The notes below the pieces were generated by a model. That model saw nothing but the letters and a program-made list of their open reading frames with translations, had not been told where the DNA came from and did not search any database. 64,000 nucleotides of DNA, from assembly GCA_030748635.1 (NCBI GenBank), contig JASMLP010000028.1, forward strand, positions 24,633-88,632, read 5' to 3'. Position 1 is the stretch's first letter. Each line of letters opens with the position of its first letter. Below, piece by piece: positions 6,297-61,793 of the stretch. This DNA is from Planctomycetota bacterium. GTDB lineage: Bacteria > Planctomycetota > JACQVV01 > JASMLP01. The translations under genes were made by a program, and so were the position numbers.

Positions 6297-7487
6297 ATGA
6301 CGAAGATGACGAAAAAACTTGTGATGGCGGATCGTCGACCGATCCTGGCAATACTCGTTCTGGCAGCCGGGTTGCGATTGGGGTATGCCTTGATGCTGGG
6401 GCCTGAGCCGCTATTTCCCGACGCCATCGAATTCCAGGCTCAGGCTCTCCATGTGGCCGCTGGGGAGGGGGCGATCGTGAGCGAAGAGCGCGTGGCGACT
6501 CGCCCCCCTCTTCTGGCCATCCTCCTGGCACCTTTTGCCTGGATCTGGGGCGAGGACTTTCGGCCCGCTCGTCTCTTCTTGGCTCTGATCTCGGTTCTCA
6601 CGATCTTTTTGGTGCATCGCCTGGGGAGTCGGTTCGGAGGAAGGGATGTGGGAATCTGGGCCGCGCTTCTCGTGGCTCTCGACCCTTTTCTGGTCTACCT
6701 GGCTCCGGCGGTTCTTTCAGAAACGGTCTTTGTCTTTCTGCTTGTCGCGGCGGTGATCCTGGTTCATCGTTTTCGAGAGGAGGCTCGCTGGGAAGACGGT
6801 TTCTGGGGCGGTTTTTTTCTGGGACTCGCCGCGTTGACCCGAACGTCAGCCCTGCTGCTTCCCTTTTGGTTCGTGCTGGTGATGAGACCTCACAAGAAAC
6901 CTTCGGGCGCCCTGGCTCTTCTGGTGGGGGCGGCACTGGCCGTGGCTCCGGGGATTGTGGTCCCATCGCTTACGTTGGATACATGGGTGCCGATCACGAC
7001 CAAGGGAGGGCAAAATCTCTACGAGGCGCTCGGTCCTGGAGCTACCGGTCGGGTTCGGATCCTGGAGATGGAATTCCCACCTCATCTGGAAGGGCTTTCG
7101 CTGGTTGAGAAAGATCGGGAATTTCGTCGTCTTGCGTGGGACTCCGTGCTCGAGCGACCGGGTGTGGCTTTGCGTCTGGCTTTCTACAAAGCTCTCTATT
7201 TCTGGAATCCGGTTCCCAACGCTGAGGAATATCGACATCCCTGGATGATTCTCGTGTCGGTGCTTTATGCCTTGCCTCTTTTCGTTTTGGCCATTTTAGG
7301 CCTTCGCCGGGTTTGGGCTCGGGGGGGGGTCGTTCTTCTTGTTCCCATGCTGTATTTCACCGCTCTCCATATGGTCTTTCTCGGATCGATCCGGTACCGT
7401 GTTCCGCTTCATCCGCTGATGGCGGTGATGGGAGCCTCATTCCTGGCTCACTGCTGCAGAAGAGGTCAAGTATCCGGGGAGTGTTAG
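6297..7487 (+). CDS. GT39/ArnT-like integral membrane glycosyltransferase
   Basis: Multi-TM protein with conserved acidic loop (PEPLFPDAIEFQAQA) and GT-C like layout. Confidence 0.7.
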   Translation: MTKMTKKLVMADRRPILAILVLAAGLRLGYALMLGPEPLFPDAIEFQAQALHVAAGEGAIVSEERVATRPPLLAILLAPFAWIWGEDFRPARLFLALISVLTIFLVHRLGSRFGGRDVGIWAALLVALDPFLVYLAPAVLSETVFVFLLVAAVILVHRFREEARWEDGFWGGFFLGLAALTRTSALLLPFWFVLVMRPHKKPSGALALLVGAALAVAPGIVVPSLTLDTWVPITTKGGQNLYEALGPGATGRVRILEMEFPPHLEGLSLVEKDREFRRLAWDSVLERPGVALRLAFYKALYFWNPVPNAEEYRHPWMILVSVLYALPLFVLAILGLRRVWARGGVVLLVPMLYFTALHMVFLGSIRYRVPLHPLMAVMGASFLAHCCRRGQVSGEC

Positions 7488-7491
7488 AGAC

Positions 7492-9081
7492 GTGTCTTTT
7501 TCTTATCGGGACCGAAAGCAGATTCTCCAGACGTGTACCGATCAGACCTTCGATCTGGTCGTGATCGGTGGTGGAATCACCGGAGTGGGGGTTGCTCGAG
7601 AAGCTTCCATGCGTGGGCTTTCTGTCTTGTTGTTGGAGCAGGGAGATCTGGCTGAAGGCACTTCGAGTCGCTCCTCGAAGCTGATTCATGGAGGTTTACG
7701 CTACCTGGAACAGTTTCAGTTCGGACTCGTATTCGAATCGGTATCCGAGCGTAGAAAACTCCGTCGCCTGGCTCCACACCTGGTCCGGCCCTTGGCGTTT
7801 TTGTTTCCGGTTTACGAGGACTCCAGGCACGGGCTTCTGGCGGTATCGGCCGCGATGTGGATGTACGACGCGCTGGCCTGCTTTCGGAATGAACACCTTC
7901 ACAAAACGCTGGGGGTACAAGGGGTTCTCGATCGTGAAGGAGGGCTCCGGTCGGAGGGGCTCAAGGGCGGGGTTCTCTATTATGACGCGATGGCTGATGA
8001 CGCGAGATTGGTGCTGGAAACCGCGATCTCGGCGGCCGATCACGGTGCGTCGATTCTCACTCGGGCCCGTGTTCACGGATTCGGAGAGGGAGAATCGGAA
8101 CGGGTGGATCGGGTCCTATTTCGGGATCTCGATGGAGGAGGAGATTTCGAAGTTCGAGCTCGGATGGTGGTTTCGGCCACCGGACCGTGGACGGATCGTG
8201 TTCTGGGTGAATTGTCCGGGACCGAATCTACGCTGCTGCGTCCTACCAAGGGGGTGCACCTGGTCCTCTCTCCGGGCCGTCTACCTCTGGAACACGCGGT
8301 GGTGGTACGGACACGAGATGGAAGAATCGTTTTTGTGCTGCCCTGGAAAGGGCAGGTGGCAATCGGGACCACCGATACGGATTTTTCGGAAGATCCATCG
8401 GCGGTTGGGGTCGATGCCGCGGATATCGAATATCTTCTCCCTGCCGTGAACGCCTGTTTTCCCGAAGCTCATCTCGTCCCTGAAGATGTGGTGGGGCATT
8501 GGGCGGGAGTCCGGCCGCTGTTGCGTGAGGAGGGGGTCGGGGAGTCTGAGGTCTCTCGGGAACACGAAATCGTTTTTGTAAAACCCAACCTGGTCGCTGT
8601 GGTCGGGGGGAAGTTGACTACCTATCGGCTCATGTCAGAAGAGGTTTTGGATGAGATCCTGCCAAGTCTTTCCGAGGTGATGGATACTTCGGGTTTCCGC
8701 AAGGCGCGGTCGGATCAGGAGGTTCTTCCGGGAGCTCCCGACTGGGAAGTGGGGCGCGAAAGGGAAACCGCTTACCATGCGCAGATGGTCGAGGAAGGGC
8801 TGGGGGATGCGACGGCTGTTCATCTTCTGGAGCAGTATGGAGTCCGGGCTCCCTCGGTTCTTGCCGTGGCGAGGGAGGTGGGTCTGGAGAGAGCGTTCGA
8901 CCCGATCGTTGAAGGGTTGCTCCCGATCCGGGCGGAGATCGCCTACGGGGTCGAAGAGGAGATGGTACTTTCGGCCGCGGATCTTCTGGACCGACGACTC
9001 AGTTTGCGTCAGAGGCATCTGGAAGGAACGTTACAGGTCGAGGAAGAGGTTGAATGTCTGGTTCGTGAGCTGCGATCCTGA
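7492..9081 (+). CDS. glpD: FAD-dependent glycerol-3-phosphate dehydrogenase
   Basis: DLVVIGGGITGVGVAREASMRGLSVLLLEQGDLAEGTSSRSSKLIHGGLRYLEQ signature; GTG start. Confidence 0.93.
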   Translation: MSFSYRDRKQILQTCTDQTFDLVVIGGGITGVGVAREASMRGLSVLLLEQGDLAEGTSSRSSKLIHGGLRYLEQFQFGLVFESVSERRKLRRLAPHLVRPLAFLFPVYEDSRHGLLAVSAAMWMYDALACFRNEHLHKTLGVQGVLDREGGLRSEGLKGGVLYYDAMADDARLVLETAISAADHGASILTRARVHGFGEGESERVDRVLFRDLDGGGDFEVRARMVVSATGPWTDRVLGELSGTESTLLRPTKGVHLVLSPGRLPLEHAVVVRTRDGRIVFVLPWKGQVAIGTTDTDFSEDPSAVGVDAADIEYLLPAVNACFPEAHLVPEDVVGHWAGVRPLLREEGVGESEVSREHEIVFVKPNLVAVVGGKLTTYRLMSEEVLDEILPSLSEVMDTSGFRKARSDQEVLPGAPDWEVGRERETAYHAQMVEEGLGDATAVHLLEQYGVRAPSVLAVAREVGLERAFDPIVEGLLPIRAEIAYGVEEEMVLSAADLLDRRLSLRQRHLEGTLQVEEEVECLVRELRS

Positions 9082-55373: not shown

Positions 55374-56879
55374 CTATCTGATTCGGATCGTTTTTCCCGT
55401 CCCGTTGTAGTAATTCACGTCGATTTGTTCCAGTGAAAATTCCGGTCGGCCTTCAATATAGACAGACAGATTATGCTTCGCTTCTAGCTCCGCGATCGAT
55501 TGACGATGAATGTTTAGTAGCTCGGTCGCGGTGCTGGGATGGGTTCCCACGACCACTCTTCGAACCCCCTCGTTTTTCGTCGCGTTCATGATCATTCGGG
55601 TGAGCATGAGACCCAGAGATTCTGCTGTTTTTACGTGTCCCTTTCCGTGACAGAGGGGGCAGGGACGATGGGTTGTGGTTTGAAGCCCGGGACCCATTCG
55701 TTGTCTTGTGAGTTCGATGATGCCGAACTGACTGATGCGTCCGATACGGAAGCGCGCTCCATCCCGTCGCAGAAAGGTTTTGAATTTCTTCTCGATCTCG
55801 CGTCGGTTTTTTTCTTCGCGCATGTCGATGAAGTCGACCACGATCACGCCCCCCATGTCGCGCAGTCGCAATTGTCGAGCGACTTCTTCCGCGGCTTCCG
55901 CGTTGACTCGAAGCGCGGTGTTTTCGATATCCTTCTCTTCCGTGAATCGTCCGCTGTTGACATCGATGGCTACGAGGGCTTCGGTCTGATCGATGACGAT
56001 CGAGCCGCCCGAAGGTAGAGGGACCTGTCTTTGCAGGGTGCGTTCGATCTGTTCTTCGAGTCGAAAGCGATAAAAGAGCGGTTCTCTGCGATCGTAAAGT
56101 TTGACGCGACCCCGCATTCTTGGACTTACTACACGCATAAGGTCATAGATTTTACGGGCTCCCTCCGGCGAATCGATCAGGATTTCGTCCACGTCGTTAG
56201 TGAGGGCGTCCCGGATGGTTCGGACGACCAGGTCGCTTTCCTGGTAGAGGGTGACCGGGGCCACCGAACGCTTTTCGCGGGCCTGAATGGCGTCCCACAA
56301 TTTGAGCAGATATTTGAGGTCTTTCTGGAGTTCGGTCTTGGTTCGATCCACGCCGGCGGTACGGACGATGACTCCCAGTTCAGGTGGAAGAGAGATCGAA
56401 CTGAGTTTGGAGCGAATATCTTTGCGCTTTTTCGCGTCATCAATTTTTCGGCTGACTCCGGATCGGCGGACCTGCGGCATCAGGACAACATATCGTCCTG
56501 GAAGCGAGATGTAGGTGGATAAGGTGGCTCCTTTTTCGCCGATTTCGTTCTTGGTGATCTGGCAGACAATTTCCTGTCCGCGGTGGAGCAGATCCTGGAT
56601 GCGTCTTCGTCCTCCGGGTCCGTCGCCGGAAGAACGGGCGCCGACGACTGCTGGGCAGACATCGGAAGAGTGGAGAAACCCGTTGCGTTTTTCACCGATC
56701 TGGACGAAAGCGGCCTGGATGCTCGGTTCGACGTTGACCACCCGGCCTTTGTATATGTTTCCATAGCCGGAGGCGATCGAGTCCCTTTCAAGGTAGAGTT
56801 CTTCGAGGGTGCCGTTTTCGATTACAGCGACCCGGGTCTCACCCGATTGGGCCATGTTGATAAGGATTTTCTTGGGCAT
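55374..56879 (-). CDS. rng: Ribonuclease E/G family
   Basis: MPKKILINMAQSGETRVAVIENGTLEELYLERD, GNIYKGRVVNVEPSIQAAFVQIGEKRNGFLHSSDV, GGVIVVDFIDMREEKNRREIE. Confidence 0.96.
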   Translation of the reverse strand: MPKKILINMAQSGETRVAVIENGTLEELYLERDSIASGYGNIYKGRVVNVEPSIQAAFVQIGEKRNGFLHSSDVCPAVVGARSSGDGPGGRRRIQDLLHRGQEIVCQITKNEIGEKGATLSTYISLPGRYVVLMPQVRRSGVSRKIDDAKKRKDIRSKLSSISLPPELGVIVRTAGVDRTKTELQKDLKYLLKLWDAIQAREKRSVAPVTLYQESDLVVRTIRDALTNDVDEILIDSPEGARKIYDLMRVVSPRMRGRVKLYDRREPLFYRFRLEEQIERTLQRQVPLPSGGSIVIDQTEALVAIDVNSGRFTEEKDIENTALRVNAEAAEEVARQLRLRDMGGVIVVDFIDMREEKNRREIEKKFKTFLRRDGARFRIGRISQFGIIELTRQRMGPGLQTTTHRPCPLCHGKGHVKTAESLGLMLTRMIMNATKNEGVRRVVVGTHPSTATELLNIHRQSIAELEAKHNLSVYIEGRPEFSLEQIDVNYYNGTGKTIRIR

Positions 56880-57136
56880 GAATCGTGAGGCCGATCTCCG
56901 CAGGACCTATTCGATCTGAAGACCCTAATCGGTAGGGAATCTTTTCGATGCGGCTGCTACGGTGGAATTGGTTTCGTGAATCCCGGGGTTCGGGGAGCGG
57001 GAAGAGAACGGAGATTCCGCCTCGCCCTGCTCGACCTCGAGGAAGGGCGGAGTGAATCAAACCGGGCCACAGATGTCAAGTGGGAGGGGGCCCCTGATTG
57101 CGATTCTTGGAAGGTCGGAGCGGCCAAATCTCGGGT

Positions 57137-57217
57137 TTTCCAACGGATTTCCACAAAATTCTGGTTCTTTCCACGGGATGAGACAAGGTTTCCACTTTTC
57201 TTCCCCGGATATTCCAC
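57137..57217. repeat. Phased direct-repeat array of TTTCCAC (GTGGAAA on minus)
   Basis: TTTCCAC(or 1-mismatch) at 57137 (TTTCCAA), 57148, 57168, 57189, 57211 (ATTCCAC): spacings 11, 20, 21, 22 bp. Confidence 0.6.
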
Positions 57218-57241
57218 AAAAAATAAAAAACTGGGATTTCC

Positions 57242-57271
57242 TTGATTTCCGGTATGACCATTGCTTAGATT
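57242..57271 (+). promoter_or_regulatory. Candidate sigma-70-type promoter
   Basis: TTGATT - 18 bp - TAGATT, 4/6 matches in each hexamer; ends 7 bp before the first hairpin of the candidate RNA. Confidence 0.35.
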
Positions 57272-57277
57272 ATCCGT

Positions 57278-57373
57278 GCTCTGGGTTCTGTCTCCCACGA
57301 AACCCGGAGTGAGATCTCCCAATCTCCCTGAGGGCCAGACCAAGTTTACCCTGGTCTGGCCCTTCCCTTTTTT
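57278..57373 (+). ncRNA. Candidate small RNA (~96 nt) with three UCUCCC motifs and terminator
   Basis: Hairpin CTCTGGGTT/AACCCGGAG (57279-57287/57301-57309), hairpin GAGAT/ATCTC (57311-57315/57322-57326), TCTCCC at 57291, 57315, 57323, terminal stem plus T tract. Confidence 0.45.
57331..57373 (+). terminator. Intrinsic terminator reading on + strand
   Basis: AGGGCCAGACCA / TGGTCTGGCCCT 12-bp perfect stem, 9-nt loop, then TCCCTTTTTT. Confidence 0.7.
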
Positions 57374-57388
57374 CCGGCGAGGCTGGAT

Positions 57389-59191
57389 TCAGGAAGGATC
57401 GACCTGCAGGAGTTGATGGTACTCCTGCAAGGTGCGTACCTGGGGGTTTTGCTTCTGACTATTTCGAATTCCTCGAATGGCCGCGGCTGTCCCGGAGAGA
57501 GTGGTGATCATCGGGATCCCGAGCAGGAGCGCTGATTGCCCGATAGCATCTTCATCATATCGGGCCTTTTTTCCTAATGGGGTGTTGATGATCAGGTCGA
57601 TGGCGCCGTTTTTCATCAAGTCGACTACATCGGGTCGTCCCTCATGAACTTTGTATGTAAAAGTTGCAGGAATCCCGTTTTGCTTCAGGGCGCGTGCGGT
57701 GCCACGGGTGGCCAGGATATCAAAACCCAACTCTTGGAAATCTCGGGCCAAGTCGATCACCGAAACCTTGTCGTTCTCATTCACACTCAGAAATACGGTT
57801 CCAGATGTGGGGAGATGCAGGAAGCCTCCCTCCATGGCTTTGGAGTAGGCGTTGCCCAGACGGAGGCTGATTCCCATGACCTCCCCGGTTGACTTCATCT
57901 CGGGCCCGAGGAAGAGTCGAGTGCCCGGAAATCGGGAAAACGGAAACACCGGCTTCTTGACGCTGATGTAGCGAGTTTCCGCTTTTCCTGTCAGGCCGAG
58001 GTCCGAGAGGCGGTGGCCGAGGCAGACCCGAGTCGCTATTTGAGCCAGAGGGACGCCGACTGCCTTGGAAACGAAGGGGATGGTTCTCGAGGCCCGTGGG
58101 TTGACTTCGAGCACGTACACCACTTCGTTTTTCATGGCGAACTGGATGTTGAGCAGTCCAACCACCCCCAGGCGCAAGGCGAGACGTCGGGTGGTCTCTT
58201 CGATCGTGGAGAGGCATTCCGAGGAGATGAGGTACGGGGGGATAACGCAGGAGCTGTCTCCGGAGTGGATTCCGGCTTCCTCAATGTGCTGCATGACCCC
58301 GCCGATGAAGACCTCGGTGCCGTCGCAAACGGCGTCGACATCGAACTCGAAGGCATCTTCGAGGAATTGATCGATCAGGATAGGATGTTCCGGACTGATT
58401 TCGGCGCTTCGGCGAACATAGTGGATCAGATCGTCCGGGTCGTAGACGATCGACATGGATCGGCCACCGAGCACGTAGGAGGGGCGTACGAGAACCGGGT
58501 AACCGATGCGGTTAGCGATCTGGATGGCTTCGTCCACGGTTCTGGCCGAACCGTCCTCAGGGTGGGGGAGATTTAGTTCGGTCAGAATCGCGCCAAATTT
58601 TTCGCGGTTCTCGGCCAGATCGATCTGTTCGGGGGAAGTCCCGAGGATGGGGGCGCCTGCTTCACCGAGTTGCCTCGCGATCGAGAGAGGGGTTTGTCCC
58701 CCAAACTGGATCAAAACACCATCAGGCTGCTCCAGTTCGAGGACATTCATCACGTCCTCGAAGGTCAAAGGTTCGAAGTAGAGTTTGTCTGCAACATCGA
58801 AGTCGGTCGAAACCGTTTCCGGGTTGCAGTTGATCATGATCGCTTCACGCCCTTCGTCCTGCAGAGCGAATACGGATTGAACGCAGCAGTAATCGAATTC
58901 GATACCTTGACCGATCCGGTTAGGGCCTCCGCCAAGTATCACGATCTTCTGTTTGTCGGAGGGACGGCTTTCGTTTTCTGTTTCGTAAGTGGAATAAAAG
59001 TAAGGTGTTTCGGCTTCGAACTCGGCCGCGCAGGTATCGACGGTTTTGAAGGTCGGGCGGATGCCGTGTTCGATTCGAGATTTTCGGATCTGGTGGGCAT
59101 TGTGTCCGATGAGATGGGCTAACTGTTCATCGGAATACCCGAGCCGTTTTCCTTCCAGAAGAAGATCTCGATCGATCGGAGGTGAGGTCAT
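57389..59191 (-). CDS. carB: Carbamoyl-phosphate synthase large chain, C-terminal half
   Basis: [21 protein letters not shown]...[24 protein letters not shown] and C-terminal MGS-like domain; starts in the oligomerisation-domain region. Confidence 0.95.
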
Positions 59192-60651
59192 CTCGGAGCG
59201 ACCTCCGAGCGGAGGGGTTCGTGTCCGGAGCGAAAGCGTTCTTCGAAATCGACCAGTTCGGCGATCTGCTCGAGGAACCAGGGATCGATGTAGGTGATCT
59301 TGGCGATTTCAGTGACCGTCATTCCGAGTCGTAAAGCGTCCGCGACCGCGAACAAACGATCTTCAACCGGTTGCATCAGGTGTCCTCGAAGCTCTTCGAG
59401 GGATGTCCACCCCTTGCTATCGGCTCCGAGGCCGGCGCGTCCGATTTCCAGGCTGCGCATGCCTTTTTGAATCGATTCTTTGAATGTCCGTCCAATCGAC
59501 ATCACTTCGCCGACCGATTTCATCTGGATGCCCAGGAGATTGCTACATCCCTCGAACTTTGCGAAATCCCAGCGAGGAATCTTGCATACCACATAGTCGA
59601 TGGTGGGCTCGAAACTGGCGAGAGTCTTTCGGGTGATGTCGTTGGGGATCTCGTCGAGCGTGTAGCCGAGGGCCAGCTTGGCCGCGACTTTGGCGATCGG
59701 GAAACCGGTTGCTTTGGAAGCCAGAGCGGAGGATCGGCTGACTCGAGGATTCATCTCGATCACCACCATGCGGCCGCTTTGGGGGTGAATCGCGAACTGG
59801 ACATTGGAACCTCCGGTCTCGACGCCGATGGCTCGAAGGCAGATCAGCCCCCAGTCTCTCATCTTCTGGTAGTCCCGATCGGAAAGAGTCTGGGAGGGAG
59901 CTACGGTGATGGAGTCGCCGGTGTGGACCCCCATGGGGTCGATGTTCTCGATCGAACAGATCACGATGCAGTTGTCTTTATGGTCGCGAACGACTTCGAG
60001 TTCAAACTCTTTCCAACCCAGCAGGTACTCCTCGACCAGCACTTCTGAAATGGGGCTGGCGGTGAGGGCTTTTTCGACCAGGGAGTCGAATTCTTCGACA
60101 TTGTAGGCGGTGCCTCCACCGGTGCCTCCCAGGGTAAAGGCCGGTCGCAGGCTGATCGGAAAATCCAGTTCCGGAAGAAGCGCTCGCGCTTGTTCGACGG
60201 TTTTGACTGTGTTGCCCCGGGGAACATCGAGGCCCGCTTCGAGCATCGTATTGTGAAAGAGTTGGCGGTCTTCAGCTTTACGAATCGCTTCAGGTTTGGC
60301 GCCGATCACCTCGACTCCGTGTTGTTCGAAAACTCCAGCGTCTGCGACTTCGAGCGTCACGTTGAGGGCGGTTTGGCCCCCCACGGTGGGAAGTACGGCG
60401 TCCGGTTTTTCTCGGATCACGATCTGCTCGATCACCGAGGCGGTAATCGGTTCGATATAGGTACGGTCGGCAAAAGAGGGGTCGGTCATGATCGTGGCTG
60501 GATTGCTGTTGACCAACACGACTTCACACCCCTCTTCGCGCAGCGCTTTGAGAGCTTGGGTGCCCGAATAATCGAACTCGCAAGCTTGACCGATGACGAT
60601 GGGGCCCGCGCCGACGAGAAGGATTTTTTTTAATTCCGGACGGCGCGGCAT
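59188..60651 (-). CDS. carB: Carbamoyl-phosphate synthase large chain, N-terminal half
   Basis: [41 protein letters not shown]...; ends [22 protein letters not shown]...; ATGA overlap with C-terminal half. Confidence 0.95.
59192..59209 (-). promoter_or_regulatory. Hairpin sequestering the carB C-half Shine-Dalgarno
   Basis: Minus strand CTCGGAG-GTCG-CTCCGAG immediately followed by ATGA; GGAGG (59206-59202) lies in the stem/loop, 10 nt before ATG. Confidence 0.55.
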
Positions 60652-60653
60652 CT

Positions 60654-61793
60654 TCAGTCCCCCCTCGCGTGGTTGCGAACGGTGTTCGCAAAACGTTCGA
60701 AGAGATATTCCGAGTCGTGGGGTCCGGGGCAAGCTTCCGGGTGATACTGGACAGAAAAACAAGGTTGGTCTATCACTTCGATCCCTTCGACGGTGCCGTC
60801 GTTCAGGTTGAGGTGGGTGATGCGGATCCGGTCGGAATCCAGACTCTCTTCTTCCACGGCAAAACCGTGGTTTTGGCTCGTGATTTCGACCTGACCGCTT
60901 TGGAGATCCTTGACGGGATGATTCGCTCCGTGATGTCCAAAGGGGAGTTTGAAGGTGCGTCCTCCCAGCGCCAAGCCGAGGATCTGATGGCCGAGGCAAA
61001 TGCCGAAGGTAGGAATTGAATGTTCCAGAAGTCTTTGGACGGTGGAGATCGCATAGGTCACCGCAGCCGGATCGCCAGGACCGTTGCTGAGCAGAACACC
61101 GTGAGGGGCGTGAGACTGAATCTCCTCGAAAGGGGTGGTCGAGGGGACGACCTGGATTCGGAAACCGTATCCGGCGAGACCGCGAAGGATGTTGGTTTTG
61201 ACGCCGAAATCGAGGACCAGAATCGTGGGGCCTTCAACATCCGAAAACAGATAGGGCTCTGAGCAGGTAACCTGGCTTGCCAGATCTTTACCGGACATCT
61301 TTCCCGCTTCCAGGGCTTCCTGCGTGAGTTGGTCGAGGGGTTCGGTCGGATCGGAGGTGAGAACTCCACCGAGAGAGCCGTGCTGTCGGATCTTGCGGGT
61401 GAGGGCCCGGGTGTCGATTTCGGAAATTCCCGGTACGTCGTGAGCGGCAAGATATTCCGAAAGCGAAAGGCTCGCCTGACGATGACTGTGGATTCGAGAA
61501 TGTTCGCGGACGATGAATCCTTCGACCTGAATGCCGTTACTTTCGACGTCTTCTTCGTTGATCCCGTAGTTGCCCACATGGGGATAGGTGATCGTGACGA
61601 GTTGGCCGGTATAAGAGGGGTCGGTCAGAATTTCCTGGTAGCCGGTCATCCCGGTATGGAAGCACACTTCTCCGGACGCTTTTTTGGAGGATCCAAATCC
61701 GAGTCCCTCGAAGACGGTGCCGTCTTCGAGCACGAGCCGAACCCGATTTCTGGGGGTTTGTGGTGGTCTCGAGGAGGGGGGCGAAAAAGGCAT
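60654..61793 (-). CDS. carA: Carbamoyl-phosphate synthase small chain
   Basis: [58 protein letters not shown]; GATase triad region [16 protein letters not shown] and [16 protein letters not shown]. Confidence 0.97.

Follow-up and report, generated by a model that had tools for sequence, protein, structure and literature searches.

A helically phased TTTCCAC array between rng and carB in a planctomycete genome, a possible DnaA-box-like cluster outside the origin

Five heptamers of the type TTTCCAC lie on one strand, one or two helical turns apart, in the non-coding gap between rng and carB of a planctomycete genome. The array is probably more than a chance arrangement. Judged from its motif and layout, we tentatively read it as a cluster of DnaA-box-like sites outside oriC, upstream of a candidate + strand small RNA and the divergent rng gene, a reading to which we give slightly less than an even chance. 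The host genome is a 4.25-Mb draft from an isolated planctomycete, and one genome of the same order (G001) was included in the comparison. The 64,000-nucleotide stretch of this genome that was analyzed is referred to below as the window, and TTTTCCACA denotes the DnaA box found at the likely origin of the same genome. The features of the locus are as follows.

55374-56879, - strand: rng, RNase E/G family (PF10150, E 1.2e-100)
57074-57079, - strand: TTGACA, a possible -35 of an rng promoter with a poor -10; picked by eye and absent from the promoter-scan list
57137-57143, + strand: array unit 1, TTTCCAA; 9-mer TTTTCCAAC from 57136, 2 mismatches to TTTTCCACA
57148-57154, + strand: array unit 2, TTTCCAC; 9-mer ATTTCCACA, 1 mismatch to TTTTCCACA
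57168-57174, + strand: array unit 3, TTTCCAC; 9-mer CTTTCCACG, 2 mismatches to TTTTCCACA
57189-57195, + strand: array unit 4, TTTCCAC; 9-mer GTTTCCACT, 2 mismatches to TTTTCCACA
57200-57206, + strand: possible degenerate unit, CTTCCCC; 11 bp away from both unit 4 and unit 5, weak, with 2 of its 7 positions mismatched
57211-57217, + strand: array unit 5, ATTCCAC; 9-mer TATTCCACA, 1 mismatch to TTTTCCACA
57216-57230, + strand: A-rich tract ACAAAAAATAAAAAA, 3' of the array boxes; the oriC and C107 clusters have theirs on the same side
57242-57271, + strand: tentative promoter of the RNA (TTGATT at 57242-57247, 18 bp, TAGATT at 57266-57271); 8/12, picked by eye
about 57277-57375, + strand: candidate small RNA, from its predicted fold; its 3' end converges on the carB2 3' end
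57389-59191, - strand: C-terminal half of carB (carB2), from a Pfam search of open reading frames

The gene order on the - strand is truD, carA, carB as two adjacent halves, a gap of 509 bp that contains the array, and then rng, rplU, rpmA, and obg. The split carB (window 57389-60999, - strand) consists of two adjacent genes with an ATGA overlap at 59188-59191, and carB of G001 is a single open frame of 1297 codons. An earlier note on this DNA had listed the five heptamers, and all were recovered on the same strand at the positions it gave, with spacings of 11, 20, 21, and 22 bp; the A-rich stretch it placed after them is also present. Further weak units absent from that list are CTTCCCC at 57200, TTTCCTT at 57237, and TTTCCGG at 57246, and 11-bp steps within the array connect 57137/57148 and 57189/57200/57211. 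The note's statement that no coding feature explains the array is borne out, as Pfam gave no significant hit to any open reading frame across the gap (one was sub-threshold, E 0.03). The orientation it implied also stands, with rng (-) and the + strand RNA candidate divergent; carB2 and rng are co-directional on the - strand. A tandem repeat or iteron array was considered and rejected, because the spacers between the units are unrelated and are not repeated with the motif, whereas most other triples found across the phylum are true tandem repeats.

The heptamer TTTCCAC is identical to positions 2-8 of TTTTCCACA, with differing flanks. Each of the five array sites, which together occupy 83 bp, has one or two mismatches to this box, and these fall at positions 1, 2, 8, and 9, nearly all of them at the variable ends. 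Most variation among DnaA boxes is in the first three positions and the last one, with up to two mismatches being usual (PMC5043019). Background statistics were taken from 319 kb of sampled stretches and from whole-genome pattern searches. Five TTTTCCACA-like sites in 90 bp make the array the best cluster in the sampled 319 kb. When the 9-mer was permuted and scored on the same DNA, 290 of 300 versions never reached five sites and the other 10 did so apparently at a simple-sequence locus; a five-site cluster was reached in 1 of 1500 Markov windows. The proposal of the earlier note, a multi-site regulator array, survives in part: no other type of explanation does better than a phased protein-binding array between divergent rng and the + strand RNA, but the DnaA-box core had gone unnoticed.

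The likely origin of this genome is on contig C200, assigned by dnaA (L155:8831-10177), dnaN (6669-7820), and a GC skew sign change between them alone. The DnaA encoded there has the usual GGRDHSTV signature. An A/T-rich stretch (L155:8527-8830) holds one perfect box, TTTTCCACA, at L155:8660 in the intergenic stretch 3' of dnaA, which matches the R-box consensus TTWTNCACA at 9/9 positions. As in the array, this stretch has more units of the type TTTTC/TTTCC on the same strand, at steps of about 11 and 22 bp, that point into its A/T-rich part. The origin differs from the array in its perfect box, long A/T-rich unwinding region, dnaA and dnaN neighbors, and GC skew switch, none of which the array has. 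An intergenic site on contig C107 (12216-12246) contains two exact copies of TTTTCCACA 22 bp apart and facing an A/T-rich tract, and on its boxes it is a candidate DnaA box cluster outside oriC. A third exact copy is 178 bp away, giving three in 209 bp (G000:C107:12038-12246; L158:8039-8247), and no GC skew change occurs there. The array, the origin, and the C107 site share a layout of co-directed boxes about 11 or 22 bp apart that point at an A/T-rich tract. Across the genome, TTTTCCACA is not enriched (47 occurrences vs 40 for reversed controls). A replication origin at the array itself was rejected, because GC skew stays positive throughout the window and changes sign at C200 instead.

Several properties temper the assignment to DnaA. 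No stringent TTWTNCACA box is present in the array and the two best sites match at 8/9, so it is classed as DnaA-box-like and not as a proven member of the class. Since box positions 1 and 9 look random, the sites are explained just as well by a 7-bp motif unrelated to the DnaA box. The match of TTTCCAC to the DnaA box was spotted post hoc, and by a very rough estimate a random 7-mer fits some frame of TTWTNCACA in about 0.3% of cases. With looser DnaA-like scoring, two further five-site stretches appear in the window. Because of the missing perfect box, the random outer positions, the post hoc match, and a spacing that suits direct-repeat regulators equally well, we hold the DnaA assignment just short of even.

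If DnaA does act here, the protein, probably in its ATP form, would bind cooperatively along one face of the DNA, at five weak-to-moderate, co-directed boxes one or two helical turns apart and aimed at the A-rich tract. The level of DnaA could then control the promoter of the RNA, the promoter of rng, or both, as at the mioC and dnaA promoters of E. coli, and the array might also titrate some DnaA. In this scheme the sites, their phasing and non-coding setting, the divergent layout, and the match to the box of the origin are observed, and we infer the binding of DnaA, the promoters, the existence of the RNA, and the regulatory outcome. Control by several mostly imperfect boxes is known from the E. 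coli mioC promoter, where one of five DnaA boxes is stringent (PMC4585315). The array resembles E. coli datA and DARS1/2 and the clusters of B. subtilis and Streptomyces in having several intergenic, off-origin, mostly imperfect DnaA-box-like 9-mers, and it resembles the DnaA-regulated promoters of mioC and dnaA in E. coli, where such sites lie within or upstream of the promoter. However, the array lacks a perfect box, all five of its sites are co-directed in helical phase, and it adjoins rng and an orphan RNA candidate, which sets it apart from these known clusters and promoters. The fullest version of the scheme, a divergent switch under DnaA control in this deep planctomycete lineage, in which one phased array sets transcription of both RNase G and a small RNA of the anti-Shine-Dalgarno type and so couples replication to RNA turnover and translation, seems improbable to us. 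Few studies appear to address replication control or small RNAs in planctomycetes, for which literature searches returned general papers only. Binding of DnaA to the array would tie RNase G and a new small RNA to the replication cycle, and the likely origin and second box cluster identified alongside it make this idea directly testable.

The + strand RNA candidate that had been proposed beside the array has gained support. Its predicted fold (57275-57375, + strand) has an energy of -45.2 kcal/mol vs -26.4 kcal/mol for shuffles (z -4.98) and comprises three hairpins. Two of these, at 57278-57310 and 57311-57326, carry CUCCC and CUCCCA loops, in which CUCCC is predicted to be exposed (unpaired probability 0.89-1.0). 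The third, at 57330-57364, is a terminator hairpin of 13 pairs followed by a run of six U that stops just before the carB2 stop. Counted from the presumed start of the RNA, the array lies about 60-140 bp upstream; for that start the promoter scan at a 9/12 cut-off returned no site. CUCCC is complementary to the Shine-Dalgarno sequence GGGAG. Shine-Dalgarno-like motifs (GGAG/GAGG/AGGA) precede 13 of 30 window genes, with gene starts picked mechanically, vs 17% of random stretches; since they are commoner there than at random, the loops could pair with ribosome-binding sites. The candidate is like small RNAs with C-rich loops (RoxS/RsaE type, PmaR) in its predicted short length, C-rich loops, and intrinsic terminator, but it differs from them in having no sequence homologue or Rfam match. 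No Rfam family matched, and a single-sequence covariance model run on 392 planctomycete genomes returned nothing convincing as a homologue, its matches being all terminator-like or within genes. PmaR itself mostly acts elsewhere than at ribosome-binding sites (PMC6234868).

The main alternative, possible though on the unlikely side, is that the array is the operator of another direct-repeat regulator (an OmpR/PhoB-type, LytTR-type, or BldC-like protein) that activates the RNA from -60 to -140, perhaps with an effect on rng as well. The conserved unit, a 7-mer with random flanks, is consistent with such an operator, as is the distance of about 60 bp between the end of the array and the presumed start of the RNA. 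The spacings of 11, 20, 21, and 22 bp agree with the direct repeats of about 11 or 21-22 bp of LytTR and OmpR operators, and OmpR/PhoB-type half-sites suit the 11-bp steps. To our knowledge, however, the array motif matches no consensus of the OmpR/PhoB, LytTR, or BldC families. LytTR sites are repeats of 9-11 nt with spacers of 11-13 nt, which gives a period of 20-24 bp (PMC4847170), and BldC occupies repeats, variable in number, in a head-to-tail manner (PMC5859096), although its repeat, AATTXXXX(C), differs from the array motif. All three families, like the array, have directly repeated units set one or two helical turns apart and placed upstream of a promoter, but the array has five units instead of the usual two, no matching consensus, and no adjacent regulator gene, its neighbors being carA, carB, and truD on one side and rng, rplU, rpmA, and obg on the other. 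The genome-wide motif scan proposed in the earlier note was run and found no second array of equal strength anywhere in the 4.2 Mb, which is unusual for a response regulator, so an operator of this kind is not in wide use in this genome.

Chance is an unlikely explanation. By this account the array is a cluster, in an intergenic stretch, of a pyrimidine-rich heptamer picked by eye from a large scan. The array is the sole case in the window where 87 bp hold at least five copies (up to one mismatch, at least three exact) of a non-simple 7-mer. Markov-3 simulation of the window, with 8000 copies amounting to 512 Mb, gave 267 such events (0.033 per 64 kb), so about 2.2 unphased arrays are expected in a 4.2-Mb genome, an expectation that favors chance. 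Once each spacing had to fit a multiple of 10.5 bp to within 1 bp, however, only two events remained in the 512 Mb, about 0.016 per 4.2 Mb, so it is the phasing that carries the signal of the array. The phase tolerance was chosen after the data had been seen, which makes these statistics good but not overwhelming; many windows may also have been read, and it is common for some 7-mer to occur three times exactly within 85 bp (10 cases in the window vs 2.3 expected). Against chance, the array is unique in the window, is not in coding DNA but in the 509-bp gap that separates divergent transcription units, and has a core that coincides with the DnaA box of the origin. Whole-genome pattern searches found TTTCCAC pairs 19-22 bp apart at the array, inside one response-regulator gene, and at C107, and nowhere else; a TTTCCAC triple occurs in this genome at the array alone.

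An array acting at the RNA level is very improbable: in this account, GUGGAAA units, as the heptamers read on the - strand, would be bound on the rng leader or a carB-rng read-through transcript by a multimeric RNA-binding protein or, in autoregulation of the kind that RNase E genes exert through their own leaders, by RNase G. The leader stretch is unusually unstructured, folding worse than shuffles (z +2.2), but the GGA cores are predicted to be mostly paired, a 10.5-bp phase is of no consequence in RNA, and the units would fall outside the rng leader because its best -35-like TTGACA (57079-57074) is downstream of the array, all of which weakens the earlier reading of these units on the rng leader. 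CsrA-type binding was rejected, as the units lack the ANGGA context.

No recognizable counterpart of the array or the RNA was found in the planctomycete genomes searched, perhaps simply for want of close relatives among them. In no other genome compared did carB adjoin rng, and G001 gave no match to rng. A 21-bp-spaced GTGGAAA pair upstream of rng in L004 was set aside, as it appears to lie inside a coding region. In many planctomycetes (rng loci L031-L110), ptsI is upstream of rng across a gap of several hundred bases, the place taken here by carB2. In L125, where ptsI is upstream of rng, the 3' end of ptsI matches 57235-57259 over 25 bp; this stretch was considered as a possible ptsI remnant, but the match is taken as coincidence, because the similarity ends after 8 residues and ptsI-like genes are present elsewhere in the genome.
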